A stretch of 64,000 nucleotides of DNA from positions 248,001 to 312,000 of the forward strand of contig NZ_JAUSXO010000001.1 of NCBI RefSeq assembly GCF_030816075.1, given 5' to 3'. A program made the translations under genes and the position numbers. The stretch comes from Arthrobacter agilis (GTDB taxonomy: Bacteria; Actinomycetota; Actinomycetes; Actinomycetales; Micrococcaceae). The stretch's first letter is position 1. Each line of letters begins with the position of its first letter. Of the stretch, positions 8,748 through 33,218 are shown in pieces. Under the pieces are notes generated by a model, which worked only from the letters and a program-made list of their open reading frames with translations, searched no databases and was not told where the DNA came from.

Positions 8748-11700
8748 TTAGCCAGCCGATTGGTGGTTGCCTAGCCCGAAAAACCTTTCGAAGAACGTGC
8801 CGAGCTTCCCAAGAACACGGTCTTTCTTCTCTCCATGGCCTCCGTCCGACCCGAATCTCGAAACCGGCGGCAACACCTTGGTGATGGCAGTGCCGCTCTT
8901 TCTGATTTCACCGTCTCGGAAGGCCGTTTCGATGAACGAACGCGTCTCATCCGCTTTAAGGTTCTCTTGCTCGACAATCGCATTGAGCTCTGCGGCCCGG
9001 CGGGCGGCGACGTAGGCCGCCCACTGCTCGTCGATATCTCCGCTGGCAGAGATGGAGTCTACGAAATCCTCGACCAAGTCCTTCTTATTGCGCAGGCTCG
9101 GGCTCGCGTCGATCGCGTGCGAGATCGTCACCCGGATGTCGCGGTCTTCGCCGTCGCCGGTAGCCTCGCGGAACTTCTGAACGAGCATCAGGATGTAATC
9201 GACGTTGATCTCGACCTGTTTGATCAGCTCGATCTCGAAGACGACGTCATCGACAATCGACTCCTTATCGGTGTCCTTGCGCTTGCGGAACTCGGCGTAC
9301 AGGTCGAGGTAGACGCTGCGGTAGTCCTGGCCTTGGCGGTCGGTCAGGATCTCATTTCCAATGAAATCGTCGAACGAGCTCAAGATGTTCTGCAGGCGCA
9401 GGATCTGACCGAACAGCGCGATGAAGGTTTTCGGCGCCGATTCGCCGATGATCGGCTGCCCCAGCGGGAACTGGGCCACAAGTTCCCGCACGAGCTCTGA
9501 ATACGTGTCGTAGTACTCGGCGTACGGCTTGAGAAGTACGACGCTCTTTGCATCCTTATTACCGAAGAGTGCGATGGCCTCGTTGGTTTCCTCTTCGAGG
9601 TCACGGAAACTGACAATGTTACCGTAGGTTTTGACCGAGTTGAGGATGCGGTTGGTCCGGGAGAACGCCTGGATAAGACCGTGGTTCACAAGCCGTTTGT
9701 CGACAAAGAGTGTGTTGAGCGTGGTGGCGTCGAAGCCGGTCAAGAACATGTTGACCACGATGACAAGGTCAAGTTCGCGGTTTTTCAGGCGTAGCGACAG
9801 ATCCTTGTAGTAGTTCTGAAATTTCTCGGACGAGGTGTCGAAACTCGTGTTGAACATCAAGTTGTAGTCCTTGATCGCGGCTTCTAGGAAGTCACGCGAG
9901 GACTGGTCGAGGTTGGCTGTATCGAAGCCCTCGTCGTCGAGGGAGTCGTCGCCGACCTCTTCATTTGCCGCGTAGGAGTAGATGATGCCGATCTTGAGCT
10001 TGCGATCCGGCGTCAGGTGTGCCTGCTGCACTTGGAAGCGAGTGTAGTAGCGCTTAGCTGCCTCGATCGAGGCGGTCGCGAATAGTGCATTGAAGCCATG
10101 TACTCGACGCTCACCCAGCGAGTAGTGCTCTGCGCGGCGGGTCTTCTGGTCGAAATGCTCCAGCGTGTAGTCGACGACTTTGCGGAGGCGCTCAGGCGCG
10201 AGGAGCGCCTTCTCAGTGTCGATCGCGGGTACCTGCGCATCGACGACCGAGCCCACCTTAACCGTGTTCACGTAGTCAATGCGGAACGGCAGGACGTTCT
10301 TGTCGCTGATGGCATCGACAATCGTGTAGGTGTGGATCGCCATCTGGTGGCTCTCGGGCGGGCACTTCTTCGGGTCTCCGTGCAGGAAGCAACCGAAAGC
10401 CTGGGCCGTAGTGCGCAAGTTCGCGTTACCACTGGTGCCGGCGTTGCTGGCGAAGATCGGCGTCCCGGTGAAGCCGAAGAGGTTATAGCGCTTGAACGCT
10501 TTGGTGATCGCCGTATGCATGTCTCCAAACTGGGAGCGATGGCACTCATCGAAGATGAGTACGACATGCCCGTCGAAGATCTCGTGGCCCTTGTTTGCCG
10601 GCGCATTGATGAATGTCGCGAGCTTCTGAATCGTCGTGATGATGATCCGCGCGCTCGGGTCCTCCAGCTGCTTCTTGAGAACCGCTGTTGAAGTGTTGGA
10701 GTTGGCAGCACCCTTCTCGAAGCGGTCGTACTCGCGCATCGTTTGGTAGTCGAGATCCTTACGATCGACGACGAAGAGCACCTTCTCGACGCTCGGCATC
10801 CGGCTGGCAAGCTGGGCCGCCTTGAAGCTCGTGAGCGTCTTACCCGAACCGGTGGTGTGCCAGACGTAGCCACCGGCTTTGAGCGTGCCGAGCTGCTTGT
10901 AGTTGGCAGAGACCTCGATGCGGTTTAGGATCCGCTCTGCGGAGACGATTTGATACGGGCGCATCACAAGCAGCATGCGATCGGCGGTGAGCACGCAGTA
11001 CTTAGTGAGGACGTTGAGCAGGGTGTGGCGAGCGAAGAACGTCTTGGCGAAGGCCGAGAGGTCTTGTATCGGCTTGTTCTGGGCGTCGGCCCACCAAGAG
11101 GTGAACTCGAATGAGTTGCTGGTCTTGCGTGTCCGCTTCTTGCCCTTCAGATCCTCGACATGCTGACGCCGCGTGGTGTTGCTGTAGTACTTGGTCAGTG
11201 TGCCGTTACTGATAACGAAGAGTTGGACGTACTCGAACAGGCCTGAGCCGGCCCACAGGCTGTCGCGCTGATAGCGATCAATCTGATTGAAGGCTTCGCG
11301 GATGTCGACGCCGCGGCGCTTGAGTTCGATATGCACCATCGGGAGCCCATTGATGAGGACGGTGACGTCGTAACGGTTGGCATGATTGGCGCCACCCTCA
11401 CCTGCAGCGAGTTCGTATTGGTTGATCACCTGTAGGCGATTATTGTGGACGTTCTTCTTGTCGATGAGGCTGATGTTCTTCGTCGTACCGTCGTCGCGCT
11501 TAAGCGTCTGGATGTGATCATCCTGGAGGCGGACGGTCTTTTCGGCGATGCCATCGTTCGCTGCAGCGATCTTCGTCGTGAAAAACTGCTCCCACTCCGG
11601 ATCGCTGAAGGTGGTGCGGTTCAGCGCCTCTAGCTGAACACGAAGGTTCGCGATCAGCTGCTGTTCACTGGTGATCGGAAGGTATTCGTACGCCTGCGAC

Positions 11701-11846
11701 TCCAGGAGCTTGATGAACTCCTTCTCAAGCTCAGCCTCGGACTGGTAGGCCGTCGCATCGCCCGCATCGGCGACGTACTCAGCAACAACCGTGCTCTCGG
11801 AGCTGACGGCAATTGGGGCGTACTGACGAGGGCGGGAATCGCTCAT
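8748..11846 (-). CDS. hsdR: Type I restriction enzyme, HsdR subunit
   Basis: This 1032-aa protein carries the DNA-cleavage and motor functions of a type I system. An N-terminal nuclease domain has RYDVTVLINGLPMVHIELKRRG near residue 160 (the D...ExK of PD-(D/E)XK). The SF2 motor has VWHTTGSGKTLTS (Walker A) near 330, LIFDECHRSQFG, and FGFTGTPIF, with a helicase C half reading VNMFLTGFDATTLNTLFVDK. The C-terminal region is the usual helical HsdM-binding domain. It resembles the EcoR124/IC branch. Its ATG overlaps the hsdS stop by four bases (ATGA). Confidence 0.97.
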   Translation of the reverse strand: MSDSRPRQYAPIAVSSESTVVAEYVADAGDATAYQSEAELEKEFIKLLESQAYEYLPITSEQQLIANLRVQLEALNRTTFSDPEWEQFFTTKIAAANDGIAEKTVRLQDDHIQTLKRDDGTTKNISLIDKKNVHNNRLQVINQYELAAGEGGANHANRYDVTVLINGLPMVHIELKRRGVDIREAFNQIDRYQRDSLWAGSGLFEYVQLFVISNGTLTKYYSNTTRRQHVEDLKGKKRTRKTSNSFEFTSWWADAQNKPIQDLSAFAKTFFARHTLLNVLTKYCVLTADRMLLVMRPYQIVSAERILNRIEVSANYKQLGTLKAGGYVWHTTGSGKTLTSFKAAQLASRMPSVEKVLFVVDRKDLDYQTMREYDRFEKGAANSNTSTAVLKKQLEDPSARIIITTIQKLATFINAPANKGHEIFDGHVVLIFDECHRSQFGDMHTAITKAFKRYNLFGFTGTPIFASNAGTSGNANLRTTAQAFGCFLHGDPKKCPPESHQMAIHTYTIVDAISDKNVLPFRIDYVNTVKVGSVVDAQVPAIDTEKALLAPERLRKVVDYTLEHFDQKTRRAEHYSLGERRVHGFNALFATASIEAAKRYYTRFQVQQAHLTPDRKLKIGIIYSYAANEEVGDDSLDDEGFDTANLDQSSRDFLEAAIKDYNLMFNTSFDTSSEKFQNYYKDLSLRLKNRELDLVIVVNMFLTGFDATTLNTLFVDKRLVNHGLIQAFSRTNRILNSVKTYGNIVSFRDLEEETNEAIALFGNKDAKSVVLLKPYAEYYDTYSELVRELVAQFPLGQPIIGESAPKTFIALFGQILRLQNILSSFDDFIGNEILTDRQGQDYRSVYLDLYAEFRKRKDTDKESIVDDVVFEIELIKQVEINVDYILMLVQKFREATGDGEDRDIRVTISHAIDASPSLRNKKDLVEDFVDSISASGDIDEQWAAYVAARRAAELNAIVEQENLKADETRSFIETAFRDGEIRKSGTAITKVLPPVSRFGSDGGHGEKKDRVLGKLGTFFERFFGLGNHQSAG

Positions 11847-13072
11847 GATGCAAGCTCCTCGAAGGTGAGAAGGCGGTCCCGGTAGTACTCATACTGAGTG
11901 CGTCGGGCCTTCAGCTCGGCGGGGAGATTCGCGCTCAACTCGCTGACCAATGCGTCGAATTTGTCGAGAATTTTGACGATGCGCTCCTGCTCGCTCTTGG
12001 GCGGAACCGGAACCATCACGGACTTCACTATGTCCGCGTTGAGGTTCCTGACGGTGCCGGAGCCGGCGCGCTGGGCGAACTCGGCCTGGACGGGTGCCGA
12101 ACGGAGGAGATAGTAGAGGTAGTCGGGGATGAACGACTCGCTGAAGTTGCTGATCGCGAGCCAACCGTCGTGGATGCAGCCCTCGATTTTCGAGATGTAG
12201 GGGCGCCCGAAACTCATTGAGTTGGAGAGCACGAAGTCTCCGGGAACCACACGACGCGACTTGGCTGCCCCAGCGGGCGTCACTCGCTGCGCGGTGCGAG
12301 TTATGAACTTGTCGCCCGCAGGAACGTCGCCGATCTTGATCCATGGGATCCCGTCTTCGGCGGTTGTGATGAAGGACTGGATTGGTCTCGGCGATGCACC
12401 GCGAACGATGGTGGCTACGTCGCCAAATCTGACGCGAGCGACGTGGTCCGCATTCTCGAGCAAGAGACCGGCGTGGTGGTTGTACTGGTTTCGCCGAGCC
12501 AGCTCTTCGTTTTCAAGCTCCTCAGCGAGTGCCGAAGTGAGTGCGTTGAGTTGGTCCAACACGCGCACAAGCTCGCGCTGCAGTTCGAGAGGAGGCACGG
12601 GAATTCGATATGCGCGGACAGCTCGGTCGGAAATCGATGGATAGTTTCCGGGGACCTGGTTGGCCTCGATGTATTGGCGAAAGGTCTCAGTACCGAGTAT
12701 GTGCGCGAGGAAGTTTGTGAGCACGACTGACGTGTCGGGTCTGAGTACGCAGTACCCAGTGCTCGCGATCTGCCCGTCATACTCTGCTGGAATCACCGCC
12801 CAACGCATCTGCGCGGGTCGTGTGGTCGCGAAGATCACGTCCCCTGTTCGTACGACCTGCTGCGCACGACTGGGAGCGTCCTTCGCGGTGATGACAACGG
12901 TGTCACCGATCGCGTGCGTTGCGCGGTCGACAGAAGCTAGGTCAATGTACTTGAACTCGTCGTTGGTATTGGCCCACTTGATCTTCGACGCCGTTGCGGT
13001 GATCTCGCCCACAGCTCTGAACGGCACAGCACTCGCTGCGAGCTGATGAATCAGGTTCTCGGCCCGGCTCAT
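11843..13072 (-). CDS. hsdS: Type I restriction specificity subunit HsdS
   Basis: The 409-aa protein shows two target-recognition domains, each ending in a conserved helical spacer. The first runs to about residue 150 and closes with RIPVPPLELQRELVRVLDQL; the second runs from about 215 and closes with VPVPPKSEQERIVKILDKF. This duplicated layout gives a bipartite DNA target. The spacer continues as AEELENEELARRNQYNHH and AELKARRTQYEYYRDRLL. The gene overlaps its neighbours on both sides by four bases. No second hsdS fragment or inverted repeat for phase variation was seen nearby. Confidence 0.95.
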   Translation of the reverse strand: MSRAENLIHQLAASAVPFRAVGEITATASKIKWANTNDEFKYIDLASVDRATHAIGDTVVITAKDAPSRAQQVVRTGDVIFATTRPAQMRWAVIPAEYDGQIASTGYCVLRPDTSVVLTNFLAHILGTETFRQYIEANQVPGNYPSISDRAVRAYRIPVPPLELQRELVRVLDQLNALTSALAEELENEELARRNQYNHHAGLLLENADHVARVRFGDVATIVRGASPRPIQSFITTAEDGIPWIKIGDVPAGDKFITRTAQRVTPAGAAKSRRVVPGDFVLSNSMSFGRPYISKIEGCIHDGWLAISNFSESFIPDYLYYLLRSAPVQAEFAQRAGSGTVRNLNADIVKSVMVPVPPKSEQERIVKILDKFDALVSELSANLPAELKARRTQYEYYRDRLLTFEELAS

Positions 13073-13884
13073 GGCGCCACTCCCTCGGATGCGATCTGCC
13101 CGATGTCATCTACGGCCCATCCGAGCTCCTCGATTGCATTCGCGTACTCGTTGTCCTTTGCGACCTGATCGACGACACCCAGCACCAGCTGGCGACATGG
13201 CGCGTACTTGGCGAGGGCAATGTCTTCGTCGGAGTGCCCGTGGATGACGTCGCTCAGTTCACCGAAGAGCTTGTAGCCGCTACCGGAGAACCGGAGCGGG
13301 ATGATGTTGCGTTTTTCGTTGACCTCCTGCAGCACGTCCTTGAACGGCCGACGCTTTCCTCTGGACGTCTGGAGGGGGACATCGGCGAGGACGGCGACCT
13401 GATGAGTCACTAACTCGAAGATTTTGCGCAGATAGATCATGGAACCTGCACCGAGGCCAAGCTCGTACGCCTGCTGAGCTCGTGTAAGCAGTTCGGCAAA
13501 TGGTCCAGAGTCGGAATCTGCGCGATCTGCACGGTCTCGCAGGTTCTCGGTGTAGCGCTCAACGCGAACGAGTGGTGCAGAGGAGTAGAAGTCATCTTCG
13601 GCGGCGACGAGAAACCATGCCTCCACGGTGCTGGCACAGCTCGAGCACTTGAGAGTGACGTCGATGCTGAGTAAGCCGTCGCCGACTACCAAGCAAGACA
13701 GCTTGGCACCTGAGAGGAATGTGCGGGTTACGTCGCACGTACGACAGCGGAAGTTGAGCGCGACCTGACCAACACGAATTGTCGTGGTTCGCCCCCAGCC
13801 AAGTCGACGGTCACCGAAGAGGAAGCGCTCTACCCGCGACTCCGGACGCGCAGGCGCTTTGGAGAGCAGTTCAGACAAGAGCAT
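13069..13884 (-). CDS. Zinc-ribbon protein of unknown function embedded in the hsd operon (DUF4145-like)
   Basis: The 271-aa protein sits between hsdM and hsdS, overlapping hsdM by 14 bases and hsdS by four. An N-terminal zinc ribbon is visible as CRTC near residue 47 and CSSC near residue 80. The second half contains ELGLGAGSMIYLRKIFELV and KRNIIPLRFSGSGYKLFGELSDVIHG, resembling the helical DUF4145-type regions found in many defence loci. The overlaps on both sides imply it is made in proportion to the Hsd subunits. It could be an accessory or control factor of the enzyme, but no catalytic motif was recognised. Confidence 0.75.
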   Translation of the reverse strand: MLLSELLSKAPARPESRVERFLFGDRRLGWGRTTTIRVGQVALNFRCRTCDVTRTFLSGAKLSCLVVGDGLLSIDVTLKCSSCASTVEAWFLVAAEDDFYSSAPLVRVERYTENLRDRADRADSDSGPFAELLTRAQQAYELGLGAGSMIYLRKIFELVTHQVAVLADVPLQTSRGKRRPFKDVLQEVNEKRNIIPLRFSGSGYKLFGELSDVIHGHSDEDIALAKYAPCRQLVLGVVDQVAKDNEYANAIEELGWAVDDIGQIASEGVAP

Positions 13885-15451
13885 GTCCCTCCCCTTTCAG
13901 ACCTGCGACGATCTTGCCGATAGCGGCTCGGAGTTCAGCTTGTCGCGCCACAATCTGAGTGATTTCGGCGTCCAGCTCCTGGATATCGACTATCTCGCGG
14001 GTGTGTTTGGCCTCGACGTACGAAGTCACGGCGATGTTGTAGCTGTTGGTTGCGAGATCGGCGTTCGAGACGATTTTGGCGAAGTGATCTACGTCCTCAC
14101 GGTTGACGAACGCATCGAGGATGGCGTTCTGGTTGTCCGTGCTGAGCTTGTTCTTATTGCCGGGGCGCACGACCTCGTCGGTCGCATTGATGAACAGGAC
14201 GGAGTTGTCCTTCTTCGACTTTTTGAGCACGAGGATGCAAGTCGCGATCGTGGTGCCGAAGAAGAGGTCCGGCGGCAGCTGGATCACTGCATCGACGTAG
14301 TTGTTTTCTATGAGATATTTGCGGATCTTCTGCTCTGCGCCTCCGCGGTACATGACGCCGGGGAACTCAACGATGGCGGCCGTCCCATTGACGGCGAGCC
14401 AACTGAGGATGTGCATGGTGAAGGCAAGATCTGCCTTGCTCTTTGGCGCTAGGACACCAGCGGGCGCGAAGCGCGGGTCGTTGATGAGGAGCGGATCGGC
14501 GTCGCCCTCCCAGTTGATTGAATACGGCGGGTTCGAGACGATCGCCTCAAACGGCTCGTCGTCCCAGTGCGCCGGGTCGACGAGGGTATCACCGTGCGCG
14601 AGGTTGATCTTCTCGTAGTTCACGTCGTGCAGGAACATGTTGATGCGGGCGAGGTTGTAGGTGGTCAGGTTGATCTCCTGGCCGTAGAAGCCCTGGCGGA
14701 CGTTCTCCTTACCCAGGACCTTGGCGAACTTCAGCAGGAGCGAGCCTGAGCCGACGGCGGGGTCGTAAACCTTATTGACCGACTTCTTGCCCACGACCGT
14801 GATGCGCGCGAGCAGCTCGGAGACCTCCTGGGGCGTGTAGTACTCGCCACCGGACTTGCCGGCGTTGGCTGCGTACATCTGCATCAGGTACTCGTAAGCG
14901 TCACCGAAGGTGTCGATGGCATGATCGTCGAAGCCGCCGAGATTGAGGTCGCCGATGGCGTTGAGCAGCTTGACCAGCTTCTCGTTGCGCCGAGCAACAG
15001 TGTTGCCGAGCTTGGCGCTGTTGACGTCGAGGTCGTCGAATAGACCCTTGAAATCGTCCTCGGAGTCCGTCCCTATCGCCGAACCCTCGATGTTGCCGAA
15101 GATTCGATCGAGCGTCTCGTTGAGGTTCTCGTCATCGGCGGCGCCTTCACGGACGTTGGCGAAGAGCTCGCTCGGGAGGATATAGAAGCCCTTCTCGGCG
15201 ACCGTCTCTCGTCGACCAAACTCAGCCTGCTCGTCGGAAAGTCGCGCGTAATCGAAGCCTGTCTCGCCAGCCTCCGCTTCGCCCTTGTTGATGTACGCGG
15301 CGAGATTCTCTGAGACAAACCGGTAAAAGAGCATTCCGAGCACGTAGCTCTTGAAATCCCAGCCGTCGACTGAACCTCGCAGATCGTTTGCGATTCGCCA
15401 AATTGTCCTGTGTAACTCAGCACGCTGAGCTTCCTTCGTGGCCGGTGTCAT
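13871..15451 (-). CDS. hsdM: Type I DNA methyltransferase subunit HsdM
   Basis: The 526-aa protein has the N-terminal helical HsdM domain (WDFKSYVLGMLFYRFVSE near residue 30), then the adenine methyltransferase core with DPAVGSGSLLLKF (SAM-binding motif I) near 225 and SNPPYSINW (catalytic NPPY) near 300. It methylates adenine at the site chosen by HsdS. It is the first gene of the hsd operon. Start choice is ambiguous: a GAGGGGAC purine run is better placed for an overlapping ATG at 15461 that opens only a 14-codon frame. Confidence 0.96.
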   Translation of the reverse strand: MTPATKEAQRAELHRTIWRIANDLRGSVDGWDFKSYVLGMLFYRFVSENLAAYINKGEAEAGETGFDYARLSDEQAEFGRRETVAEKGFYILPSELFANVREGAADDENLNETLDRIFGNIEGSAIGTDSEDDFKGLFDDLDVNSAKLGNTVARRNEKLVKLLNAIGDLNLGGFDDHAIDTFGDAYEYLMQMYAANAGKSGGEYYTPQEVSELLARITVVGKKSVNKVYDPAVGSGSLLLKFAKVLGKENVRQGFYGQEINLTTYNLARINMFLHDVNYEKINLAHGDTLVDPAHWDDEPFEAIVSNPPYSINWEGDADPLLINDPRFAPAGVLAPKSKADLAFTMHILSWLAVNGTAAIVEFPGVMYRGGAEQKIRKYLIENNYVDAVIQLPPDLFFGTTIATCILVLKKSKKDNSVLFINATDEVVRPGNKNKLSTDNQNAILDAFVNREDVDHFAKIVSNADLATNSYNIAVTSYVEAKHTREIVDIQELDAEITQIVARQAELRAAIGKIVAGLKGEGHALV

Positions 15452-19811: not shown

Positions 19812-20359
19812 GTGACACGTGGTGGAAACCGCGCGACGGGCGTGCTGTTTGTCGGACTGGGACTGCTCGCCGTCGCGACGATCCCTTTCCTGCTCATTCC
19901 GGTGGTGATCGCTGGTTCTTGGGTTGTAGCAGCACGACTGAGAACCACGCACCCAAGATTTCCCGCGCATGGCGTATGGCCGGTGTCACGGCACGTCTCC
20001 TCGCGGCAGCGGCCGGTTCCAGTATCGGCGCCCTGCAGACCGATGTCATGCTCGCCGTCTAGATCAGGGATCTCGGCCTGGAGGTCATGGCCGGCGACGA
20101 CCTCCTCGTCTCCAACAGCGACGGATCGAAAACCACCGCCCTCCTGGCGATCGACCCCGATCAGGACGTGTGGCTGTTGCTCGGCGAGGACGATTCCGTC
20201 CTCGATAAGACGATCGACAGCCCGCGCCTTCACACCCTCTTCGATGCGGAGATCCGGTCCCTGATGGCGCCCCTGAAGGATCTTCCCAATATCCAAGCAC
20301 CCACATGTCCCGGCGACTGCCCGGGCATCCATACTCACAATCACTCATCTGGGGGACTC
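19812..20359 (+). pseudogene. Decayed small membrane/secreted protein gene upstream of the lipoprotein
   Basis: From GTG 19812 (preceded by GGGGGA) the frame encodes a clear transmembrane segment, VLFVGLGLLAVATIPFLLIP, then loses coding character near 19965. A neighbouring frame picks up with ARLLAAAAGSSIGALQTDV, is cut by TAG at 20060, and then reads MAGDDLLVSNSDGSKTTALL and continues to the lipoprotein start. One frameshift plus one nonsense mutation would explain this. Alternatively, the part from ATG 20087 could be a small separate gene. The ancestral function is unknown. Confidence 0.4.
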
Positions 20360-21187
20360 ATGCGTAAACCATTCCTACTCGCGATAATCGCCGTTCTGGC
20401 GCTGTCGGGGTGTGCCTCAGAGGGCGAGAGCTCCGCCGGGTCAATCCCGGACACGGAGAAGACTGTGACTGCTTCCGCGGAGCCGACGGAGACATCCACG
20501 CCTACCCCAACACGAACACCCATTCCCAGCCCCACCCCCAGTCCGACTCCGACTATGGAGACCGCGGAACTCGTGTACTCCTGCTACAAGGACCGTCCGC
20601 AGGTCTTCTACGACTTCCACGAGGTGTGGGCCGCTAATGAGGATGTGGGCCGCTGCGAGGTGGAAAGGTTCCCGGCTCCCGAGGAGGGTGAGCTGACTAC
20701 CATCGAGCAGAAGGCCCTCACCACCGCGTACGGTGACGAGGCCGAGCCCACCAGCATCGAGACGCTTTACGGGATGTGCGCCACAACCAGCGGCTATCCC
20801 ATCGACGCGGTGGGCACCGGCCCGCAGGCCAGGGAGACCTCCGGCGCCGTTCTGCTGTGTCCGGACCACCCGAAAATCGACGCCATCAAAGCGGGAATTA
20901 CAAAGGGCATGGCGCAGGACGGGATCGAAGCCGCCATGGCGGAGGACAGGAAGAACGGCAAGCTCCTCGCGTCGGGCTCCTACCTGATAGGCACCGAAGC
21001 AGTGCCCGGCACCTGGCAGTCCCAGGGCGAGAAGGTGACCGACTGCTACTGGGAGGTCTCTGACGCCCAAGGGAACATCCTCGCGAACAACTTCATCAAC
21101 GTTGCTCCGCCGTTTACCATCAGCGTGCCGGCGGACGCCGCGGGACTGACTATCGAAGGCTGTGCCTTCCGCTGGGTCAGCCCCTAG
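20360..21187 (+). CDS. Lipoprotein with Thr/Pro-rich linker, unknown function
   Basis: The 275-aa product begins MRKPFLLAIIAVLALSGCAS, a signal peptide with lipobox LSGC, so Cys18 should be lipidated and the protein anchored on the outer face of the membrane. A Thr/Pro/Ser-rich spacer (TPTPTRTPIPSPTPSPTPT) follows at about residues 52-70. The folded part has several cysteines and a C-terminal beta-rich block containing ASGSYLIGTEAVPGTWQSQG, seen in actinobacterial secreted proteins of unknown role. GGGGGA precedes ATG 20360; the frame is open upstream but that part lacks a signal peptide. A hairpin terminator follows at 21209. Confidence 0.8.
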   Translation: MRKPFLLAIIAVLALSGCASEGESSAGSIPDTEKTVTASAEPTETSTPTPTRTPIPSPTPSPTPTMETAELVYSCYKDRPQVFYDFHEVWAANEDVGRCEVERFPAPEEGELTTIEQKALTTAYGDEAEPTSIETLYGMCATTSGYPIDAVGTGPQARETSGAVLLCPDHPKIDAIKAGITKGMAQDGIEAAMAEDRKNGKLLASGSYLIGTEAVPGTWQSQGEKVTDCYWEVSDAQGNILANNFINVAPPFTISVPADAAGLTIEGCAFRWVSP

Positions 21188-21974: not shown

Positions 21975-24900
21975 GTGACGGTGGAGAAAATCGATGGGGG
22001 AGTAGCCCGGCAGGAATTAGCCGAAGGGCTCTACGAGACGCTCGTTACTCGCTCGCTCTCAGAGCGCCTAGCTGGTTTGCCTGAACTCGAAGCAACAGTT
22101 GAGCCGCTTAGCGAAAGCGATGCGCTTGTAGCCGTATCTCAGTACGTAACCAGGGAGTTGAGTGTTGCGATGTCGAGAGCAGAGCCCGAAGCTCGACTTG
22201 CGCTAGCCAATCAACTTCTAGAGGTACTTTCATCCAGCGATGCAATTGACCAGGGCCCGTCGCAGCTTTTGTCGCTACACAAGCCCGAGTCAGTGAAGCG
22301 GCGCGACCTGCGGCGGCCCGCGACGGCGCTCTCCGACTCAGCGCTCCTGACGAACGGCAGAGATGAACCGAACTTGGCGGCGGAGCTGCGGGCTGAGATG
22401 GAGTCCGCCAACACCGTCGACCTTCTCTGTGCCTTTGTTCGATGGACCGGGCTCAGGCTTCTCCACCCGGCTCTCGAGCGATTGACCGAGCGTGGGGTGA
22501 AGCTTCGCGTCATAACGACCACCTATACGGGTGCTACTGAACGCCGAGCCATCGACGAGTTGGTGAATCGATACGGCGCCGAGGTCAAGATCAGCTATGA
22601 ATCGCAAGCGACACGGTTGCACGCGAAGGCGTGGCTGTTCCGCCGCAACACCGGTTTCGATACGGCGTATGTGGGCAGCTCGAATTTGAGCAAGGCAGCT
22701 TTAGTCGACGGGTTGGAATGGAACGTGCGCCTCAGCTCCGTCGCCACGGCAGACCTCCTTAAGAAGTTCGAGGTGACCTTCGATAGTTACTGGGCACAGC
22801 GCACCTTCCAGGCCTACGACCCTGAGCGGGACGGCGACAAACTTGATGCAGCGCTCGAACGCAACGGTGGACGCCGCACCGGTGCACCGAAGGCCGAAAC
22901 CGGGCTTGAGGTAGAGCCGTACCTGCACCAAGTCGAGATGCTCGAGGATCTCGAATCTGAACGACTCAAGGGCCATACGCGGAACCTCATGGTCGCGGCA
23001 ACCGGCACCGGCAAGACCGTCATCGCCGCTCTTGATTATCAGCGTCTCTGCGAAGCAGCGGGCCGGCGCCTCAAGCTGCTCTTCGTGGCGCACCGACAAG
23101 AGATTCTGAAGCAAGCGCTGAGTACATATCGCACCGTGATGCAAGACGGCGCGTTTGGCGAGCTCTACGTGGGAGACAACAAGCCAACGCAGTGGAACCA
23201 CGTCTTCGCATCGGTGCAATCGCTCGCCTCGCGCGGAGTGGAAGCGCTGGAACCAGATTCCTTCGAGGTCGTCGTTATTGACGAGTTCCACCACGCGATG
23301 GCGCCGAGCTATCGCCGCATCATCGACCATCTCCGCCCTCAGCAGTTACTCGGGCTGACGGCCACTCCTGAGCGGGGTGACGGGGTGAATGTGGCGCAAC
23401 AGTTCTTTGATGGTCGGACTGCGAGCGAACTTCGCCTCTGGGATGCTCTGGACGCTGACCTCCTGGTGCCGTTTCACTACTTTGGAGTGTCAGACGACGT
23501 CGACCTCAGCCAGCTGGAGTGGAAGCGCGGCAACTACGACGTTGCACAACTGGACCGCCTCTATACGGGTAATGACGCCCGCGCAGCGAAGGTAATCCGA
23601 GAGTTGCGTGACAAAGTCACCAATACGGACGATATGCGCGCGCTCGGGTTCTGCGTATCCGTTCAGCACGCGCACTACATGGCAGAGGTCTTCAACCGCG
23701 CGGGTATCCAATCGCTCGCCGTCGACGGCGGTACCGACGACGCTGCCCGAGCCTTCGCCCTCGCGCAGCTGCGAGACTCAACAATCAACTGTCTCTTCAC
23801 CGTTGATCTCTTCAACGAAGGCCTCGACCTACCGCAGGTAGACACGGTGCTCCTCCTGCGTCCCACCCAGAGCTCTACGGTCTTCCTCCAGCAACTCGGC
23901 CGTGGACTTAGGAGAGCTGAAGCGAAGTCTGTACTCACCGTATTGGACTTCATCGGCCAACAACGTCGTGAGTTCCGGTTCGACCTCCGGTACCGAGGGC
24001 TCACCGGTTACGGGCGGAAGCAACTTGAAAAAGCGGTGGAGGACGAGTTCCCATACCTTCCGTCGGGATCGCAGATCATCCTCGATCGTGTTGCTCAGAA
24101 GGTCGTCCTCGACAACATCAGGTCTCAGCTGCGGTTCAATCGGTCGCAACTCGTTCGGGACATCGCCTCCTACGGTGAGACGAACTTGGCTTCGTATCTC
24201 GAGAAGTCCGGCAATGACCTTAAGCAGCTGTATCGGAACACCAAGAACTCCTGGACCGGCTACCTGCGTCAGGCCGGCTTGATCGACTCTCTCGCGGAAG
24301 CCGGCAAAGGGCAGCAGATCCTCGCACTGTCCGGTCCAGACGAGCAGAAGCTTCTCGGTCGAATGGTGCGCTTCCTGCACGTCGACGATCCCGAGCGCGG
24401 AGAGGCCTATACAAAACTTGTTGATCCGGCGTGCCCGCCCTACGCCGAACTCGGTCCGCGCGAGCAGACCTACGCGCGGATGCTGTTCTACACGCTGTGG
24501 AACGACGGCGGAGGATTCAGCACTTACGACGCGGGACTCAGCCACCTTCGCCAATACCGCTTCGTGTGCAGCGAGATTCAGCAGTTGATTGAGCTTGGGG
24601 TGGCAGCGTCGCGTCACGCGGGTAAGAGCCTTGGCTTGGGCTTGCAACACATTCCACTCCTGTCGCACGCGACATACCGCCGGGAGGAGATACTTGCAGC
24701 TCTCGGTTATGGCTCGCTGGAATCAGGCAAGAACGTGCAGCACCGCGAGGGCGTTGCCTGGTGTCCTCAAACCTCTACGGACGCCTTCTTCATTACGCTC
24801 AACAAGGACGACAAGAATCATTCAGCGTCGACGATGTACAAGGACTACGCAATCAGTCCGGAGCTGTTCCACTGGGAATCTCAGAACGCGACTTCGCCCT

Positions 24901-25130
24901 CAAGCCCGACTGGACGCCGGTACCTCGATCGGAAGAGCCACGATTCTCACGTGCTGATCTTCACGCGGCCCACCGCGGAGGACGAGACCGGGCTCGCTGT
25001 GCCGTACACCTGCCTCGGTGCGGTGGACTACGTTCAGCACTCGGGTGAGAAGCCGATTGCCATCACGTGGAAGCTGCAGAGGCCAATGCCGGCCGACGTC
25101 TTTGTGGAGGCGGCCGCTGTAGCGCAGTGA
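21975..25130 (+). CDS. PLD-nuclease / SF2 helicase / DUF3427 fusion
   Basis: This 1051-aa protein joins three modules. A phospholipase-D-type nuclease domain covers about residues 130-265, with one HKD-like motif (LHAKAWLF at 214 and GSSNLS at 233). An SF2 helicase core covers about 310-690, with VAATGTGKTV (Walker A, 341), VIDEFHHA (motif II, 434), LTATPERGDG (motif III, 461) and LGRGLRRA (motif VI). The last 330 residues match the DUF3427 region found at the end of such proteins. The set suits ATP-driven DNA tracking plus cleavage, as in antiviral systems. The GTG start opens a plus-strand cluster with the next two genes, 73 and 50 bases apart. It is not a classical HsdR, since no MTase is linked. 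Confidence 0.88.
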   Translation: MTVEKIDGGVARQELAEGLYETLVTRSLSERLAGLPELEATVEPLSESDALVAVSQYVTRELSVAMSRAEPEARLALANQLLEVLSSSDAIDQGPSQLLSLHKPESVKRRDLRRPATALSDSALLTNGRDEPNLAAELRAEMESANTVDLLCAFVRWTGLRLLHPALERLTERGVKLRVITTTYTGATERRAIDELVNRYGAEVKISYESQATRLHAKAWLFRRNTGFDTAYVGSSNLSKAALVDGLEWNVRLSSVATADLLKKFEVTFDSYWAQRTFQAYDPERDGDKLDAALERNGGRRTGAPKAETGLEVEPYLHQVEMLEDLESERLKGHTRNLMVAATGTGKTVIAALDYQRLCEAAGRRLKLLFVAHRQEILKQALSTYRTVMQDGAFGELYVGDNKPTQWNHVFASVQSLASRGVEALEPDSFEVVVIDEFHHAMAPSYRRIIDHLRPQQLLGLTATPERGDGVNVAQQFFDGRTASELRLWDALDADLLVPFHYFGVSDDVDLSQLEWKRGNYDVAQLDRLYTGNDARAAKVIRELRDKVTNTDDMRALGFCVSVQHAHYMAEVFNRAGIQSLAVDGGTDDAARAFALAQLRDSTINCLFTVDLFNEGLDLPQVDTVLLLRPTQSSTVFLQQLGRGLRRAEAKSVLTVLDFIGQQRREFRFDLRYRGLTGYGRKQLEKAVEDEFPYLPSGSQIILDRVAQKVVLDNIRSQLRFNRSQLVRDIASYGETNLASYLEKSGNDLKQLYRNTKNSWTGYLRQAGLIDSLAEAGKGQQILALSGPDEQKLLGRMVRFLHVDDPERGEAYTKLVDPACPPYAELGPREQTYARMLFYTLWNDGGGFSTYDAGLSHLRQYRFVCSEIQQLIELGVAASRHAGKSLGLGLQHIPLLSHATYRREEILAALGYGSLESGKNVQHREGVAWCPQTSTDAFFITLNKDDKNHSASTMYKDYAISPELFHWESQNATSPSSPTGRRYLDRKSHDSHVLIFTRPTAEDETGLAVPYTCLGAVDYVQHSGEKPIAITWKLQRPMPADVFVEAAAVAQ

Positions 25131-25203
25131 TGACCGTCCGGTTCACAGCAGTCGGCACTCCAAGTTATCGTTTGCTACTACATGGTCTGTCTAAATATTG
25201 GGG

Positions 25204-25926
25204 ATGCACGTGCCTACAGGTCTCAAGGATACTGAAATAGCCAAGCTCTCGACCAGCGTCGATGCTCTGTCGCCTAATCCGCGGCATGCTCGCTGGGCGC
25301 ATCTATCGTTGTGTGTTCTTGACGCGACGTTTTCTATTGGCTTGCGGTACAACGCGGTAGTTGTTCCGGTCGTGCGTAGGTACGCGCGATCGCAGAGCCT
25401 CGCGCCTGTACTAATCGAGGGGCCGGGACTGCTGGAGAAAGTGAGTCCGCGAGAGAACGAGCAGTCGCTCTCTCAATTTCTTTCGTCTATCGGGACAATT
25501 TCTGACGACGACCTTGCTACTCAGCTCGGCAGCAAGAATAGGACTTCGTCCCGTGGCGGGATTTTGAAAGCCAGCGCCTCGCGGCAGATTGCAGAAGTGC
25601 TCGTCGCGGCGGAGGTCGAAAGTCTGAGTGATGTTGCCGTACTACTAGCTGATGCTGCTCGCACCGTGCGAGTGGAGGAGGACCTGAGACGCATTGCTGG
25701 AGGCGGATCTCGAGGCATCCGGACAAGCTACCTTTGGATGCTCGCAGGTGATGATAACCACGTGAAGCCTGATCGACACGTTCTCAAGTGGCTCGGCGGC
25801 GTTCTCGGTCGTCAAGTCTCAGTCACCGAAGCCCGCTCCCTTTTGAGTGCAGTCGCGAAGGAGCTTCAAATCTCCCCGTGGTCTGTGGATCATGCAATCT
25901 GGTCGAAGATGACACGACGGACTTAG
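25204..25926 (+). CDS. HhH-GPD (DNA glycosylase-like) protein
   Basis: The 240-aa protein ends with a segment recalling the helix-hairpin-helix region of endonuclease-III-like enzymes: GSRGIRTSYLWMLAGDD near residue 167, then VKPDRHVLKWLGGVLG near 184. The VKPD Asp aligns with the catalytic Asp of HhH-GPD glycosylases; no Lys of a bifunctional enzyme and no FeS cluster cysteines are visible. It may bind or excise an unusual base. It is encoded between a PLD-helicase and a DUF262 enzyme. The ATG at 25204 is preferred over the in-frame TTG at 25198. The N-terminal 90 residues are unfamiliar. Confidence 0.6.
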   Translation: MHVPTGLKDTEIAKLSTSVDALSPNPRHARWAHLSLCVLDATFSIGLRYNAVVVPVVRRYARSQSLAPVLIEGPGLLEKVSPRENEQSLSQFLSSIGTISDDDLATQLGSKNRTSSRGGILKASASRQIAEVLVAAEVESLSDVAVLLADAARTVRVEEDLRRIAGGGSRGIRTSYLWMLAGDDNHVKPDRHVLKWLGGVLGRQVSVTEARSLLSAVAKELQISPWSVDHAIWSKMTRRT

Positions 25927-25976
25927 TCCACCCCGTGCAGTTGCCAACCGTTTGATGACACTCTCAGGAGGCATGT

Positions 25977-28508
25977 GTGGTTAGAGCAGAAAACGGGACG
26001 CTCGCAGGTGTCTTGGAAGGCAAGAAGCAGTACCAGGTTCCGCTCTATCAACGGGTGTACTCGTGGGGAAAAAAGCAGCTCGAGCAGCTCTGGTCGGACA
26101 TCACCGAGCTCGAGCATTCTCTTGCCGACGACCCGAAGGCCACACACTTTATCGGTTCCCTCGTACTAGCGAGCAGCCCTGACTTCGGTGCCATCGGCGT
26201 TAACAAATTCCTAGTTGTCGACGGCCAACAGCGCTTGACCACGTTGACGCTCCTTTTGGCTGCGCTGCGCGATCATCTCGATGCGACAGGTTACGCCGAT
26301 CGAGCAAGCGGCATAGACGCGCAATACCTGATTAACGTCTTCGACAGCGGGAAACCCATCAAGGTCATGCCGACTCAGGCAGACAGAGCGTCCTACATGG
26401 CAGTGCTGAATCGTGCGCGGCAGGCCGGCGGCGAGGACACGGTCGGCGATGCCTATCGGTTCTTCCGATCGAAGATAGCCGCTGCAGACCACCCGGACGA
26501 CCCGCACGATCTCGAGCTTCTCGAAGCGGCCGTTGTGCGCGGCCTTGCGCTCGTCGTCGTCACCGCGGAACCGTCTGACAACGCGCATCGCATCTTCGAG
26601 TCGCTCAACAACACCGGGCTCCGATTGACGCAGAGCGACCTGCTCAAGAACTACCTATTCATGCGGCTCGGTAGTCGTGCAGAAGAAGTGTACGGCAACG
26701 TCTGGCTCCCGCTGGAGAGAAAGCTTGACTCTGACAACCTCGAGCTGCTGTTCTGGCTCGACCTCGCTCAACGTGATGAACGGGCGAAGCAATCAGATAC
26801 TTATGTCGGGCAGCAAGTTCGACTTGAGAGACTCAAGAGCATCGACGAGGTGGAGGCCGAGGTAGCTCGTATCGCAGAGCCCGGTGACGTACTTGCGACG
26901 ATCCTCCAGCCTTCGAGCGAGAAGCACAGCGAAATAAGCCGACGTCTTACGAGGATCAAAGCGTGGGGTTCGACGACCGCCTATCCAGTGGTGATGCAGA
27001 TACTTGCGCGACGCGCTGACAGCACCGCCACTGAAGATGAGGTCGTGCGGGCACTGACGTACTTGGAGTCGTACTTCGTGCGACGCGTAGTGATTGGGCG
27101 TGCTACAGCAAACCTGAATCGGACTTTACTGCAAGCTGTTGGTTCGATCAGTGAAGCGGACCACATCGATTCTGCGCTGCGAGACTACCTATCGCGTGGA
27201 CGAAAGTATTTTGCCAGCGATCAGCAAGTGCTGGACGCGGCGAGAAATGTTGCGTTCTATTGGCAGGGGCGAGGACCCCAGAAGAAGCTTATTCTGCAGT
27301 GGCTGGAGGAAGCATATCGTCCGAAGGAAGTTGTCGACTTGGACCCAAGGCACCTAACAATCGAGCACGTGTTGCCACAGACAATGACCGATGAGGTGAG
27401 AGATGAGTTCGCAGCGGGTTTCGACGCTGATGCGGACATCGACTACGAGCACGAGCGGGTAATCCACACACTCGGCAACCTTACCCTGAGCGGCTATAAC
27501 AGCGAGCTCAGCAATAGGCCATTCGCTGAGAAGCGGGAAATGCTGGCAAAAAGTGGTCTGGCAATGAATCAGCATATCGCTGATAGGGCCATATGGGGCG
27601 CTGCCGAAATCAACAATCGTAGCGATGAGCTTGCTAAGAAGATCATTGAGCTCTGGCCGGGCCCGGACGAGACGGTTAGCGCGGCAGGCGACGAACCGAC
27701 GGCCTTTCGGAGCCAAATCGCTGCAATTCTTGCTCAGATTCCGGCTGGGCGCTGGACTTCTTACGGCGACGCGGCGATCGTGGCCGGCACCTGGACGCAA
27801 CCCTTAGCTGCAGTCATCGCTAAATTCCCGATGGCTAACGCGTGGCGGGTCCTGCAGAGCGGCGGAACAATCTCGCCTGGGTTTCGTTGGATTGACCTCA
27901 GTCGCGCCGATGATCCCCGGGCGGTTCTTGAAGAAGAAGGGGTTCGATTCGACGCAGAAGGGCGCGCGGCTCCAGAGCACTTTATTGGGGCAGAAGAATT
28001 AGCGGTGGCCGCTGGCCTCGATCTGGATGGGGAAGTACTCGCTGCGCGTCGCAAGAACAACAAGCCGAACACCTGGGCGGGGGGTAAGGCTCTCATGAAG
28101 GACGCCCAGCTTGCCTTCTTTGAGAAAGTGCGTGAGTACGGACTTACAAATGCGGCTCACGTTAAAATTTGGCGACAACCTCTGCGACGGGGTTGGTACG
28201 ACATACCTATCGGAGATTCGCGCGGGAGGGTCACACTACTGGTTAACTCTCAGAAGAACCTCGCCGTTACCCACTTCTGGATAGATAACGACAAGGATCT
28301 CTATCTGCAGTTGGTGAGCCAGCGAGACGCCATTGAAGCAGACTTGGGTTTTGTCCTTGAGTGGGACGCTAAACCTCACCGCAAAGCGTCGAAGCTGGTC
28401 ATCAGTCGTCCTGGCGACTTCTTGGACGAAGCTCAGTCGGAAGACCTCGTCAAGTGGCTCGTGACTACAGGAGACGCATTTGCGCGGGTCCTCCCGAAGT
28501 ACTTATAA
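25977..28508 (+). CDS. GmrSD-like DUF262 / HNH (DUF1524) / ATL-like / DUF4268 fusion
   Basis: Four modules can be read in this 843-aa protein. DUF262 opens it (QYQVPLYQRVYSW near residue 20 and VVDGQQRLTTL near 80). A DUF1524 HNH domain follows (LTIEHVLPQ near 460, HTLGNLTLSGYN near 498). Residues 579-661 look like an alkyltransferase-like domain (IPAGRWTSYGDAA, SPGFRWIDL, EEEGVRFDAEGRA). The C-terminal 140 residues match DUF4268. DUF262 plus DUF1524 make the type IV enzyme GmrSD, which cuts glucosylated hydroxymethylcytosine DNA. The ATL part lacks the PCHR cysteine (PMANAWRVL is found), so it should bind DNA rather than repair it. CAGGAGG lies five bases before the GTG start. Confidence 0.88.
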   Translation: MVRAENGTLAGVLEGKKQYQVPLYQRVYSWGKKQLEQLWSDITELEHSLADDPKATHFIGSLVLASSPDFGAIGVNKFLVVDGQQRLTTLTLLLAALRDHLDATGYADRASGIDAQYLINVFDSGKPIKVMPTQADRASYMAVLNRARQAGGEDTVGDAYRFFRSKIAAADHPDDPHDLELLEAAVVRGLALVVVTAEPSDNAHRIFESLNNTGLRLTQSDLLKNYLFMRLGSRAEEVYGNVWLPLERKLDSDNLELLFWLDLAQRDERAKQSDTYVGQQVRLERLKSIDEVEAEVARIAEPGDVLATILQPSSEKHSEISRRLTRIKAWGSTTAYPVVMQILARRADSTATEDEVVRALTYLESYFVRRVVIGRATANLNRTLLQAVGSISEADHIDSALRDYLSRGRKYFASDQQVLDAARNVAFYWQGRGPQKKLILQWLEEAYRPKEVVDLDPRHLTIEHVLPQTMTDEVRDEFAAGFDADADIDYEHERVIHTLGNLTLSGYNSELSNRPFAEKREMLAKSGLAMNQHIADRAIWGAAEINNRSDELAKKIIELWPGPDETVSAAGDEPTAFRSQIAAILAQIPAGRWTSYGDAAIVAGTWTQPLAAVIAKFPMANAWRVLQSGGTISPGFRWIDLSRADDPRAVLEEEGVRFDAEGRAAPEHFIGAEELAVAAGLDLDGEVLAARRKNNKPNTWAGGKALMKDAQLAFFEKVREYGLTNAAHVKIWRQPLRRGWYDIPIGDSRGRVTLLVNSQKNLAVTHFWIDNDKDLYLQLVSQRDAIEADLGFVLEWDAKPHRKASKLVISRPGDFLDEAQSEDLVKWLVTTGDAFARVLPKYL

Positions 28509-28660
28509 GACGCGTCGTTACTGAGCTCAGTGCTCCTTCCGGTTAGTACGCAATCAATCCTGAGATGGTGGGGTTGGTTGACGCCTAGCAATGGAGACGG
28601 GCGTATGTGCCGCTATCCTGGAGGCCCGTGCGCAGCGCCGCGCCCGGTCGCAGGAGACAG

Positions 28661-30502
28661 GTGCCGTACATGCAGCAGCTTCCCACGCCCAGCAACACCC
28701 AGAACCAGCGCAACCACACCCAGCCCTCCCAGCTCGACCGAATCACCGAACTCGCCGGGGACCTTGCCGGCCAGTTCGAGCTGGTCCCGCTCCTCGAACG
28801 CGTCCTTGGGCACGCCGCCGCCCTCCTCGGGTGTGAGAGCGGCTCCATCTCGATCGTCCACGAGACCGAGGGATACTACCGCAAGGAAGTGGACCAGGGC
28901 GTCGGCTGCCGCGAGGGCCAGACCTTCCCCCTGACCGAAGGCCTTACCGGGCAGATCGCGAGCACCCGCGGCACGGTCATCCTCGATCGCTACGCTTCCG
29001 TACCCTCGGGCCATATTGACCCGGCGGACCCTCGGTGGGGAAGCGCCGTCATCGGCGTCCCCATCACCTGGGCCGGCACGATCATCGGCACGTTCGCCAT
29101 CTTCAGTGACGGTCCCGGCCGGGTCTTCAGCCCCGGCGACGCATCCCTCGTGGAACTCTTCGCCAACCACGCCGCCATTGCCATCATGAACTCACGGCTC
29201 CACCAGGCCGCCGCTGCGAAGGAACGCGAGGCTGCCGTCGCTGGCGAACGCGAGCGTGCCGTGCAGGAGGTCCACGAGACCATCGGCCGGTCCCTGGGCT
29301 CGCTCCTGTTGCACCTCGACCGCGCGGACAAGGCGACGCCGGGCGGATCACCCTCCACCCAGCACATCGACTCCGCCCGGGTGCTCGCCCACGAGGCGCT
29401 CTTCGAGACCCGCCGCACCGTGCTGGGACTCGGACCCTCCAGTTTGGCCGACCGCTCCTTAGAGGAAGCGGTCCGCCAGGAACTCGACCGGGTGAGCGCG
29501 AACGATCCGATGGACGTGACGCTCCTCGTAACCGGCAATCGTCACGAGCTGGCGCCCGTCGTCGCCCATCAGCTCTTCATGATCATCCAGGAGGCCGTGG
29601 CCAACGCGGTCGCCCATGCCTGCGCCACCGCGTGCCGGGTGGGCATCTTCTACGACACCACCGGCATCACGGCCGTCGTCGAGGACAACGGCCGCGGGTT
29701 CGAGGGCCGGGAGAGCACAGACCTGAAGGGCAGTCGGCTCGGCCTGCACGGCATGGCAGCCCGGGCCCACTACCTGCGGGGAGAACTTCATGTGGAGTCG
29801 ACACTGGGCTGGGGGACGAGCGTCCGAGCGCAGGTGCCGTACTCCTCGAACGGCGACGCCTCCCGCGAACGCTGGAAGGTCCTCGTCGCCTGCACCCAGC
29901 CCCTTCTCCGGGCCGGGCTCGTCCGGCTGCTCGAGACATCCGAGCCGTCGGTGCAGGTCCTCGGCGAGTTCGGGACGCTCGAGGACCTCACCGAGTCGGT
30001 GTCCCTCCTGCAGCCGGACATGATCGTCCTCGACGAGCACCTGCTGTCCCGGTATGCCGGCGCCCGGGTGACGGACGCGGACACCGTCGAGCGGCCGGTG
30101 GTCGCCGTCGTCGACCATTTCGCGGACGAACTGCTGGCGGCTGCCGCGTCGTCGGGCGTGCGGGGTTTCCTCTCGCTGTCGTCGACGCCCGCGGAGGTGG
30201 CGCGCGTCGTCGTCGCCGCCGCCCGCGGTGACGCCCTGCTGGACGGGGCGATGTTCACGCGGCTCACGGAGAATCGCGCGGCGGACACAGGCGAGGCGAT
30301 ATCACTGACGGCCCGTGAACTCGAGGTACGAGACCTCCTGGCCGAGGGACTGGCGGACAAGCAGATCGCAACGCGGCTCGCCATCTCGGTGAAGACGGTC
30401 GAGAAGCACGTGAGCGCCATGCTGCGGAAGACCGGGGCACGTAACCGCACCATGCTGGTGGGCTTGCAGCACCAGGGCCAGGCAATCGCGAACTCCAGGT
30501 AG
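28661..30502 (+). CDS. GAF / histidine kinase / pseudo-receiver / LuxR single-chain sensor-regulator
   Basis: The 613-aa protein has an N-terminal GAF domain (about residues 30-180), a HisKA_3-like helix with EVHETIG near 203, an HATPase domain (QEAVANAVAHA near 310, VEDNGRGF near 340), a receiver-like domain from about 405, and a LuxR DNA-binding domain (LTARELEVRDLLAEG to SVKTVEKHV, about 547-595). The receiver keeps the central Asp (MIVLDE), but the usual acidic pair reads ACT and the conserved Lys is lost. GTG 28661 is closest to the AGGAG; ATG 28670 is an alternative. It is GC-rich, unlike its defence neighbours. Confidence 0.85.
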   Translation: MPYMQQLPTPSNTQNQRNHTQPSQLDRITELAGDLAGQFELVPLLERVLGHAAALLGCESGSISIVHETEGYYRKEVDQGVGCREGQTFPLTEGLTGQIASTRGTVILDRYASVPSGHIDPADPRWGSAVIGVPITWAGTIIGTFAIFSDGPGRVFSPGDASLVELFANHAAIAIMNSRLHQAAAAKEREAAVAGERERAVQEVHETIGRSLGSLLLHLDRADKATPGGSPSTQHIDSARVLAHEALFETRRTVLGLGPSSLADRSLEEAVRQELDRVSANDPMDVTLLVTGNRHELAPVVAHQLFMIIQEAVANAVAHACATACRVGIFYDTTGITAVVEDNGRGFEGRESTDLKGSRLGLHGMAARAHYLRGELHVESTLGWGTSVRAQVPYSSNGDASRERWKVLVACTQPLLRAGLVRLLETSEPSVQVLGEFGTLEDLTESVSLLQPDMIVLDEHLLSRYAGARVTDADTVERPVVAVVDHFADELLAAAASSGVRGFLSLSSTPAEVARVVVAAARGDALLDGAMFTRLTENRAADTGEAISLTARELEVRDLLAEGLADKQIATRLAISVKTVEKHVSAMLRKTGARNRTMLVGLQHQGQAIANSR

Positions 30503-32679: not shown

Positions 32680-33218
32680 AATTATTAGAATACTAGAAGG
32701 CCAAAAAAATCCAAGACGAGCGTCTAGTAGCAACGCGGGCGGAATCACCAAAACCTACTACGCGATCCAACGCACTAACGCGAAGGCGAAATCGACACGG
32801 CGCGGATGCTGGCGTCATCAACTCATCGTTGGACAAACTCCAAGCGTTGTCGGTACCAGCTACTCGGATACCGAAGCGCTCGAGCAGCTTGGAGAGGTTC
32901 GCAACTGATCACAAACTTGGCCTGTTTGCAGTGCCTTGACCGGGGCTGGCGTCGCAACTAGGCCGCACGAGTCGGCGGAAGGACAGCGCGATCACCGGCG
33001 GCAGGGCACTCGTCGCCGGACTGCCGCATGGGAGGAATCCGTTGCGAGCACACTGCGGGCGTCTGGGGCGACGTCTTCCGTTTGACGATCGGCCGGTCGC
33101 GCCGTCGACACACTCACCGACACAGCGGACGCGCTGCGCAAATGGTCGGACAGGAACGCAGCAGAGCGACCGCCCATTGAAGTGTCAAGGATCTTGGTGT
33201 GATTGCTTCGGTCGGTGG
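32680..33218 (+). other. Intergenic or decayed DNA downstream of the island kinase promoter
   Basis: Next to the kinase start, the minus-strand TATTCT at 32687-32692 is a plausible -10. The rest holds short frames in all phases without motifs and may be decayed mobile-element DNA. Confidence 0.3.

Follow-up and report, generated by a model that had tools for sequence, protein, structure and literature searches.

SauUSI, a type IV restriction enzyme of Staphylococcus aureus, is composed of a PLD nuclease, an SF2 ATPase, a coupler and an SRA-type recognition domain and requires S5mCNGS sites, according to the available sections of its description (PMC7913695). Enzymes of the GmrSD family combine DUF262 with a DUF1524/HNH domain; DUF4268 and PF01035 are already named as additional domains in the text of a 2015 survey, the latter mainly in Streptomyces (PMC4619093). 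The anti-phage DNA glycosylases Brig1 and Brig3 show that base excision can be a form of defence (PMC11078745, PMC13160076). In the accessible parts of these reports, the Brig1 model is matched to uracil DNA glycosylases (PMC11078745), and Brig3 is described as a mixed alpha/beta protein likened to AAG (PMC13160076).

Here we describe three neighbouring genes of Arthrobacter agilis. Based on comparison with other genomes, the trio is very probably a chance neighbourhood of independent defence genes within an island, and not a dedicated three-part system. Any activity named below for gene 1, 2 or 3 is the one we infer from its family.

Organization of the locus

The window, i.e. the whole stretch of 64,000 nucleotides that was analysed, spans positions 248001–312000 of the single contig that makes up the 3.86-Mb genome. 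Genes 1 to 3 (Table 1) lie on the plus strand. Read with the ATG as start of gene 2, they are separated by 73 and 50 bases, in agreement with the initial annotation; this arrangement makes co-transcription possible in the window genome. The reported proximity to a type I restriction-modification (RM) operon and to further island genes was likewise found. GC content is about 0.57–0.60 across most of the region from 8.5 to 28.5 kb (extremes 0.53 and 0.66) and 0.67–0.69 just outside on both sides. We read this region as a defence island with exchangeable cargo.

Table 1. Features of the locus, in window coordinates
Feature	Position	Strand	Remarks
Type I RM operon: HsdR, HsdS, 271-aa gene, HsdM	8751..15451	-	Pfam and PADLOC
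271-aa gene between HsdS and HsdM	13072-13884	-	
ISL3-type transposase fragment	16307-16993	-	inside the island
Low-GC ORF	17276-19009	-	577 aa
Gene 1: SauUSI-like type IV restriction enzyme	21975..25130	+	1051 aa
Gene 1, PLD nuclease	22467-22793		
Gene 1, SF2 ATPase	about 22911-23912		
Gene 1, DUF3427	24507-25103		
Gene 2: unannotated family, HhH-GPD glycosylase-like predicted fold	25198..25926	+	242 aa from first TTG; ATG at 25204
Gene 2, hairpin to presumed catalytic-Asp region	25687-25797		Asp192 at 25771-25773
Gene 2, Asp231-x3-Trp235	25888-25902		
Gene 3: GmrSD-type with extra domains	25977..28508	+	843 aa
Gene 3, DUF262	26007-26660		
Gene 3, HNH (GmrSD_C)	27216-27638		
Gene 3, dead alkyltransferase-like (ATL) domain	27705-27944		
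Gene 3, DUF4268	28107-28502		
GAF-histidine kinase-LuxR gene, right of gene 3	28607..30502	+	
Protein kinase gene, low GC (~0.5)	30859-32751	-	resembles mads_6 and PD-T4-6 kinases

The 271-aa gene of the RM operon displays no match in Pfam (E 0.01) or PADLOC (E 1e-5). The 577-aa ORF has no Pfam match and displays similarity to PADLOC HEC-07 (76 bits) and to NsnC; it is a further candidate defence gene of the island. For the protein kinase gene, no counterpart was found in the examined stretch of a genome that carries a close relative of gene 1 (G325, see below).

Genes 1 and 3 resemble type IV restriction enzymes

Gene 1 was initially annotated as a fusion of PLD nuclease, SF2 helicase and DUF3427, and its Pfam matches (PLDc_2, ResIII, Helicase_C and DUF3427) agree with this. 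The PADLOC mREase_IV profile PDLC03659 matches with 1126 bits over residues 114–1049 of 1051, and PDLC03658 with 284 bits. Among PDB chains, 7clg ("Putative helicase", 953 aa), which we take to be SauUSI, aligns with E 2.7e-86 over residues 123–728 only. Gene 1 thus holds the PLD nuclease and the SF2 ATPase in the same order as SauUSI, whereas its last 320 residues, the DUF3427 region, gave no match to the SauUSI recognition domain in this search, and the acidic residue of HxK(x4)E is replaced by Arg. The motifs HxK, GSxN, GxGKT, DEFH and QxxGRxxR are all present.

Gene 1 belongs to a family that holds type IV enzymes, and may by itself be a defence gene against modified DNA. It probably acts alone in the fashion of SauUSI: the C-terminal domain would recognise the modified site, ATP hydrolysis would drive translocation, and PLD dimers would then cut.

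Gene 3 matches the Pfam families GmrSD_N (DUF262), GmrSD_C, DNA_binding_1 and DUF4268, in agreement with the proposed DUF262-HNH-ATL-DUF4268 fusion. Its DUF262 and DUF1524 domains contain the motifs DGQQR and IEHVLPQ, the latter as HNH motif, and place the protein in the GmrSD family. The match to DNA_binding_1 (PF01035) is borderline (27.1 bits vs a cut-off of 27), and so is the score of the ATL part against 2kif (E 0.0021), in which Trp is aligned on Trp. There is no cysteine in the whole gene 3 protein, which therefore cannot be an active alkyltransferase; the idea of a catalytically dead ATL domain is thereby borne out. On these borderline scores the domain has an AGT DNA-binding fold without the cysteine nucleophile, the definition of an ATL, with a pLDDT of only 39 for the single-sequence model of the ATL-DUF4268 part. 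Compared with the text of the GmrSD survey, its figure left aside, gene 3 shares the two core domains and differs by uniting both named extra domains in one protein (PMC4619093).

Like gene 1, gene 3 is a member of a family with type IV enzymes and may on its own be a defence gene against modified DNA. It probably acts alone as a GmrSD-type enzyme, in which DUF262 would sense modified DNA with a nucleotide and the HNH domain would cut; the cysteine-free ATL domain and DUF4268 may add base recognition.

Gene 2: sequence, predicted fold and conserved residues

A scan of genome contigs with alignment A1 displayed 130 relatives of gene 2 among 175 candidate stretches, and 80 loci were kept. Gene calling missed the relative in 7 of these 80 and L171 was cut, leaving 72, of which 65 were aligned with the window protein (alignment A3, 66 sequences). 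Gene 2 has no match in Pfam or PADLOC at E up to 1, and in NCBIfam one match at chance level (14.5 bits vs a cut-off of 513). None of the 66 members of A3 matches Pfam HhH-GPD at E 0.01, and PADLOC yields two chance-level matches only with this alignment. The three HhH-GPD Pfam matches of the window genome lie elsewhere and are not gene 2.

The AlphaFold2 model computed from A3 is mainly helical, with a pLDDT of 91.0 and a pTM of 0.88. In a Foldseek search against the PDB, 41 of the 43 best rows are HhH-GPD glycosylases and the other two are DUF2419, namely human queuine salvage enzyme. The best 33 rows comprise 32 8-oxoguanine glycosylases and one AlkA (E 0.009–0.14, probability 0.97–1.00, TM by query 0.42–0.56, rmsd 5–12), followed by the two DUF2419 rows and then by Nth and MutY; both OGG1 and OGG2 are among the matches, and no PDB match was obtained at E 0.001. 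Likewise, a viral structure library gave none below E 0.001, with endonuclease III of Halogranum virus in the second row. The model displays the helical fold with hairpin and catalytic Asp of the HhH-GPD superfamily, at Foldseek values that stay above E 0.001. The earlier designation of gene 2 as HhH-GPD-like is supported by the model and by Foldseek, and not by Pfam; we regard the evidence for membership in this superfamily as structural and modest.

A search of PDB sequences with the gene 2 profile matches 8-oxoguanine DNA glycosylase/AP lyase chains with E 0.014–0.02, besides one variant (0.37) and one designed protein (0.54). We read these chains as OGG2 type. Asp192 of gene 2 aligns with the Asp of their IIDRHI stretch, and Asp231-x3-Trp235 aligns with their Asp-x3-Trp. 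In MjaOGG2 the corresponding pair is Asp194 and Trp198, of which the Trp stacks on 8-oxoG, as given in the available part of the report (PMC3397491). The position of the lyase lysine differs: at or beside its column, 63 of the 66 A3 members carry Gly, and no C-terminal residue is common to all members. With Gly at or beside this position, a monofunctional enzyme or a binder appears likelier than a lyase. The KPDR motif was a selection criterion of the scan, so that its conservation in A3 is in part a product of the selection; K190, D192, D231 and W235 are also invariant in a 13-sequence alignment that was not selected by pattern. An hhalign comparison of the gene 2 family with a small Nth profile (3 of 30 loci passed the motif filter) found no similarity (0.6% probability), which counts against close kinship with Nth. 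In L005 and L006, a gene-2-like domain forms the C-terminus of ORFs of about 540 aa without Pfam match at E 1, which may be fusions.

Based on these features, gene 2 most likely encodes an independent base-flipping protein of HhH-GPD type that would excise, or merely bind, an unusual base. With its Asp present and the lyase lysine absent, the protein would work as a monofunctional glycosylase. It shares with Brig1 and Brig3 the idea of base excision as defence; kinship with these proteins was rejected on fold, as the gene 2 model is mainly helical and finds its best PDB matches among HhH-GPD proteins. A restriction glycosylase of PabI type was rejected as well, since PabI is described, in the part of the literature at hand, as a HALFPIPE fold.

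Distribution of the gene 2 family

Judged by their titles, the 80 loci derive from Actinomycetota, Bacteroidota, Bacillota, Proteobacteria, Planctomycetota, Chloroflexi, a cyanobacterium, a Nanoarchaeota MAG and others, the phyla of some being deduced from genus names. Relatives are further present on eleven Rhodococcus plasmids, 7 of them typed as conjugative. The family is sporadic and has no name in Pfam, PADLOC or NCBIfam (PHROGs lay outside the search), and it is the new part of our finding. The remaining interest of the locus rests on gene 2, whose family occurs in numerous bacterial phyla, on plasmids, in one archaeal MAG and in phages with U-DNA.

Viral contigs gave no match when searched with gene 2 or gene 3 alone, and 12 loci when searched with A3. 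Relatives were found in the Bacillus phages AR9, PBS1 and Goe21. AR9 and PBS1 are U-DNA phages according to the available text of PMC8150378. The AR9 member is g110 (L298 4914-5624), which is annotated as N-glycosylase and lies downstream of an annotated early promoter; in the GenBank record, the gene for the uracil-DNA-glycosylase inhibitor is located about 3.3 kb upstream of g110. AR9 g110 and the PBS1 "N-glycosylase" belong to the same family as gene 2 (28%), and all 12 columns invariant in A3 are also invariant in an alignment including g110; they differ from gene 2 in being encoded by a U-DNA phage near the inhibitor gene. A literature search that included the accessible parts of PMC10303552, PMC12697855 and PMC8150378, and did not cover the AR9 genome paper, yielded no functional study of the AR9/PBS1 homologue.

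Association of the gene 2 family with defence genes

Restriction-type genes were found near gene 2 relatives in 12 of the 80 loci, as compared to 0 of 40 control stretches (p 0.008); the loci span many phyla, and the controls are chosen stretches in Actinomycetota genomes that match one gene of the trio. Among Actinomycetota-titled loci the ratio is 6 of 36 vs 0 of 40 (p 0.009). The 22 reference proteins behind this census were taken from the window and from further loci, and some are unidentified island ORFs; many defence types escape the census, and the positive locus L191 rests solely on such an ORF. Directly upstream of the relative, L127 and L138 encode a type IIG enzyme and L137 the end of one; L137 and L138 look like one lineage and not like two independent cases. 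In Nocardioides halotolerans (L118 520-10642), one strand encodes HsdM, HsdS, HsdR, a GmrSD protein (DUF5655), EcsC and a gene 2 relative (46%), and L181 likewise contains a GmrSD gene and type I RM genes in the stretch examined. In the other 68 loci no restriction reference is matched, and several relatives lie beside metabolic genes, such as a rhamnosidase (L174) or ribonucleotide reductase (L121). We conclude that the gene 2 family is partly tied to defence.

Gene 2 might alternatively be an ordinary accessory DNA-repair glycosylase of the 8-oxoguanine type that travels on mobile DNA and has no role in defence. We take this explanation seriously, while holding it to be somewhat less than probable. 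The closest folds and profile matches, the OGG2-like spacing of Asp-x3-Trp and the many loci outside restriction surroundings speak for it; the enrichment of restriction-type genes over controls, the adjacent type IIG enzymes, the loss of the lyase lysine and the lack of a common C-terminal residue speak against it.

With considerable doubt, and as a tentative proposal only, we hypothesize that gene 2 founds a widespread family of monofunctional base-removing or base-reading proteins with HhH fold, unrelated in fold to Brig1/Brig3 and PabI. In this proposal, the family would give restriction islands a separate, independent line of defence against phages whose bases are altered, and U-DNA phages of the PBS1/AR9 group would have adopted it for purposes of their own. 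If gene 2 removes or reads altered phage bases, a further fold superfamily would have given rise to anti-phage base excision, and the copy that phages carry near the uracil-glycosylase inhibitor gene would be directly testable.

Linkage and co-occurrence of the three genes

The search with all three proteins covered only about 420 genomes. A draw of 296 genomes at phylum level contained gene 1 in 26 (E 1e-60), gene 3 in 12 (E 1e-30) and gene 2 in 11 (E 0.001); a draw of 129 genomes at family level contained them in 47, 25 and 7, respectively. In both draws, the window genome being included, the number of genomes that share a pair is close to the chance expectation (p 0.06–0.80). For genes 1 and 3, 11 genomes were observed vs 9.1 expected in the family draw, and 2 vs 1.05 in the phylum draw; for genes 1 and 2, the numbers are 2 vs 2.6 and 3 vs 0.97 (p 0.06, borderline); for genes 2 and 3, they are 1 vs 1.4 and 1 vs 0.45, the single genome in each case being that of the window.

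Outside the window genome, two genes of the trio were not seen as neighbours in any genome that holds both. In the 14 other genome entries concerned, either the contigs differ or more than 100 kb separate the genes, most of these genomes being drafts, in which contig breaks can hide links. This holds for the 10 family genomes with genes 1 and 3 besides the window's (separate contigs, except for G422 with a distance of about 285 kb), for G196 (genes 1 and 3 about 103 kb apart) and for G365, G051 and G288 (genes 1 and 2 on separate contigs or at a distance above 1 Mb). Within flanks of 1.5 kb, gene 3 is present in 0 of 53 gene 1 loci, gene 1 in 0 of 36 gene 3 loci, and gene 2, by profile search, in 0 of all 89; 19 of 49 family-draw matches of gene 1 are without locus, and partners beyond these flanks are missed except in 19 longer stretches. 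No partner is common to ten gene 1 stretches or to nine gene 3 stretches of about 18–20 kb, in which pairs and small groups share single genes, type I RM genes included.

The gene 2 loci (3 to 20.7 kb each) give a similar picture. A GmrSD homologue is present in 2 of 80 (L118 with 31% and L181 with 25% identity), and a SauUSI-like gene in none, as L145 and L177 match gene 1 over the helicase only (27–28%). Seven Rhodococcus plasmid loci with gene 2 relatives contain neither gene 1 nor gene 3.

Variation at the site in relatives

In a genome of the same genus (G393), gene 1 (91%) and the downstream GAF-kinase-LuxR gene (82%) are kept. Between them, where the window has 3.5 kb carrying genes 2 and 3, G393 has 2.8 kb of other DNA with a different ORF. 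In G325, which carries gene 1 with 89% identity, homology extends to window position 25137; about 1 kb of different DNA follows, beyond which the homology picks up again at 33742. Among five same-genus genomes of the family draw, gene 1 is present in three, and gene 2 or 3 in none. The nearest relative of gene 3 (73%) lies in G339, a genome without match to gene 1 or gene 2.

As G393 and G325 lack gene 2 as well as gene 3 at this position, the two genes might be thought to form a unit, inserted together behind the SauUSI-like gene. The GmrSD genes around the gene 2 relatives in L118 and L181, as compared to 0 of 40 control stretches, would fit such a unit. However, G339 keeps its gene 3 without gene 2, both genes occur together in 1 of 129 and 1 of 296 genomes, each time that of the window, and 78 of the 80 gene 2 loci have no GmrSD gene in the stretch examined, so that we consider this explanation improbable. 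Least credible, and in our view very improbable, is a rare or recent real trio, in which gene 2 would excise or mark altered bases and genes 1 and 3 would shred the marked DNA: shared strand, short gaps, folds linked to altered bases and PLD and HNH effectors that could follow a base-excision step would suit it, but it is seen in no other genome examined, its genes co-occur at chance, and other DNA takes the place of genes 2 and 3 beside a gene 1 that is 91% identical.

A conserved three-gene system that detects and cuts modified phage DNA, as initially proposed, was rejected on the absence of conserved linkage, on co-occurrence close to chance and on relatives that keep gene 1 alone; the proposed search for genomes with all three genes as neighbours found none among those examined, an outcome that the initial annotation itself had named as refuting. 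Reading the trio as a chance neighbourhood of independent genes avoids a false lead: within a defence island, genes may share a strand and lie close together without making up a system.

Two observations were made by eye in the surroundings of the trio. The ORF that replaces genes 2 and 3 in G393 (L197 16420-17913, minus strand) has no PADLOC match and appears RelA/SpoT-like. The products of window 20087-21187, upstream of gene 1, and of L202 9100-9831, upstream of the nearest relative of gene 3, look alike in their C-termini.
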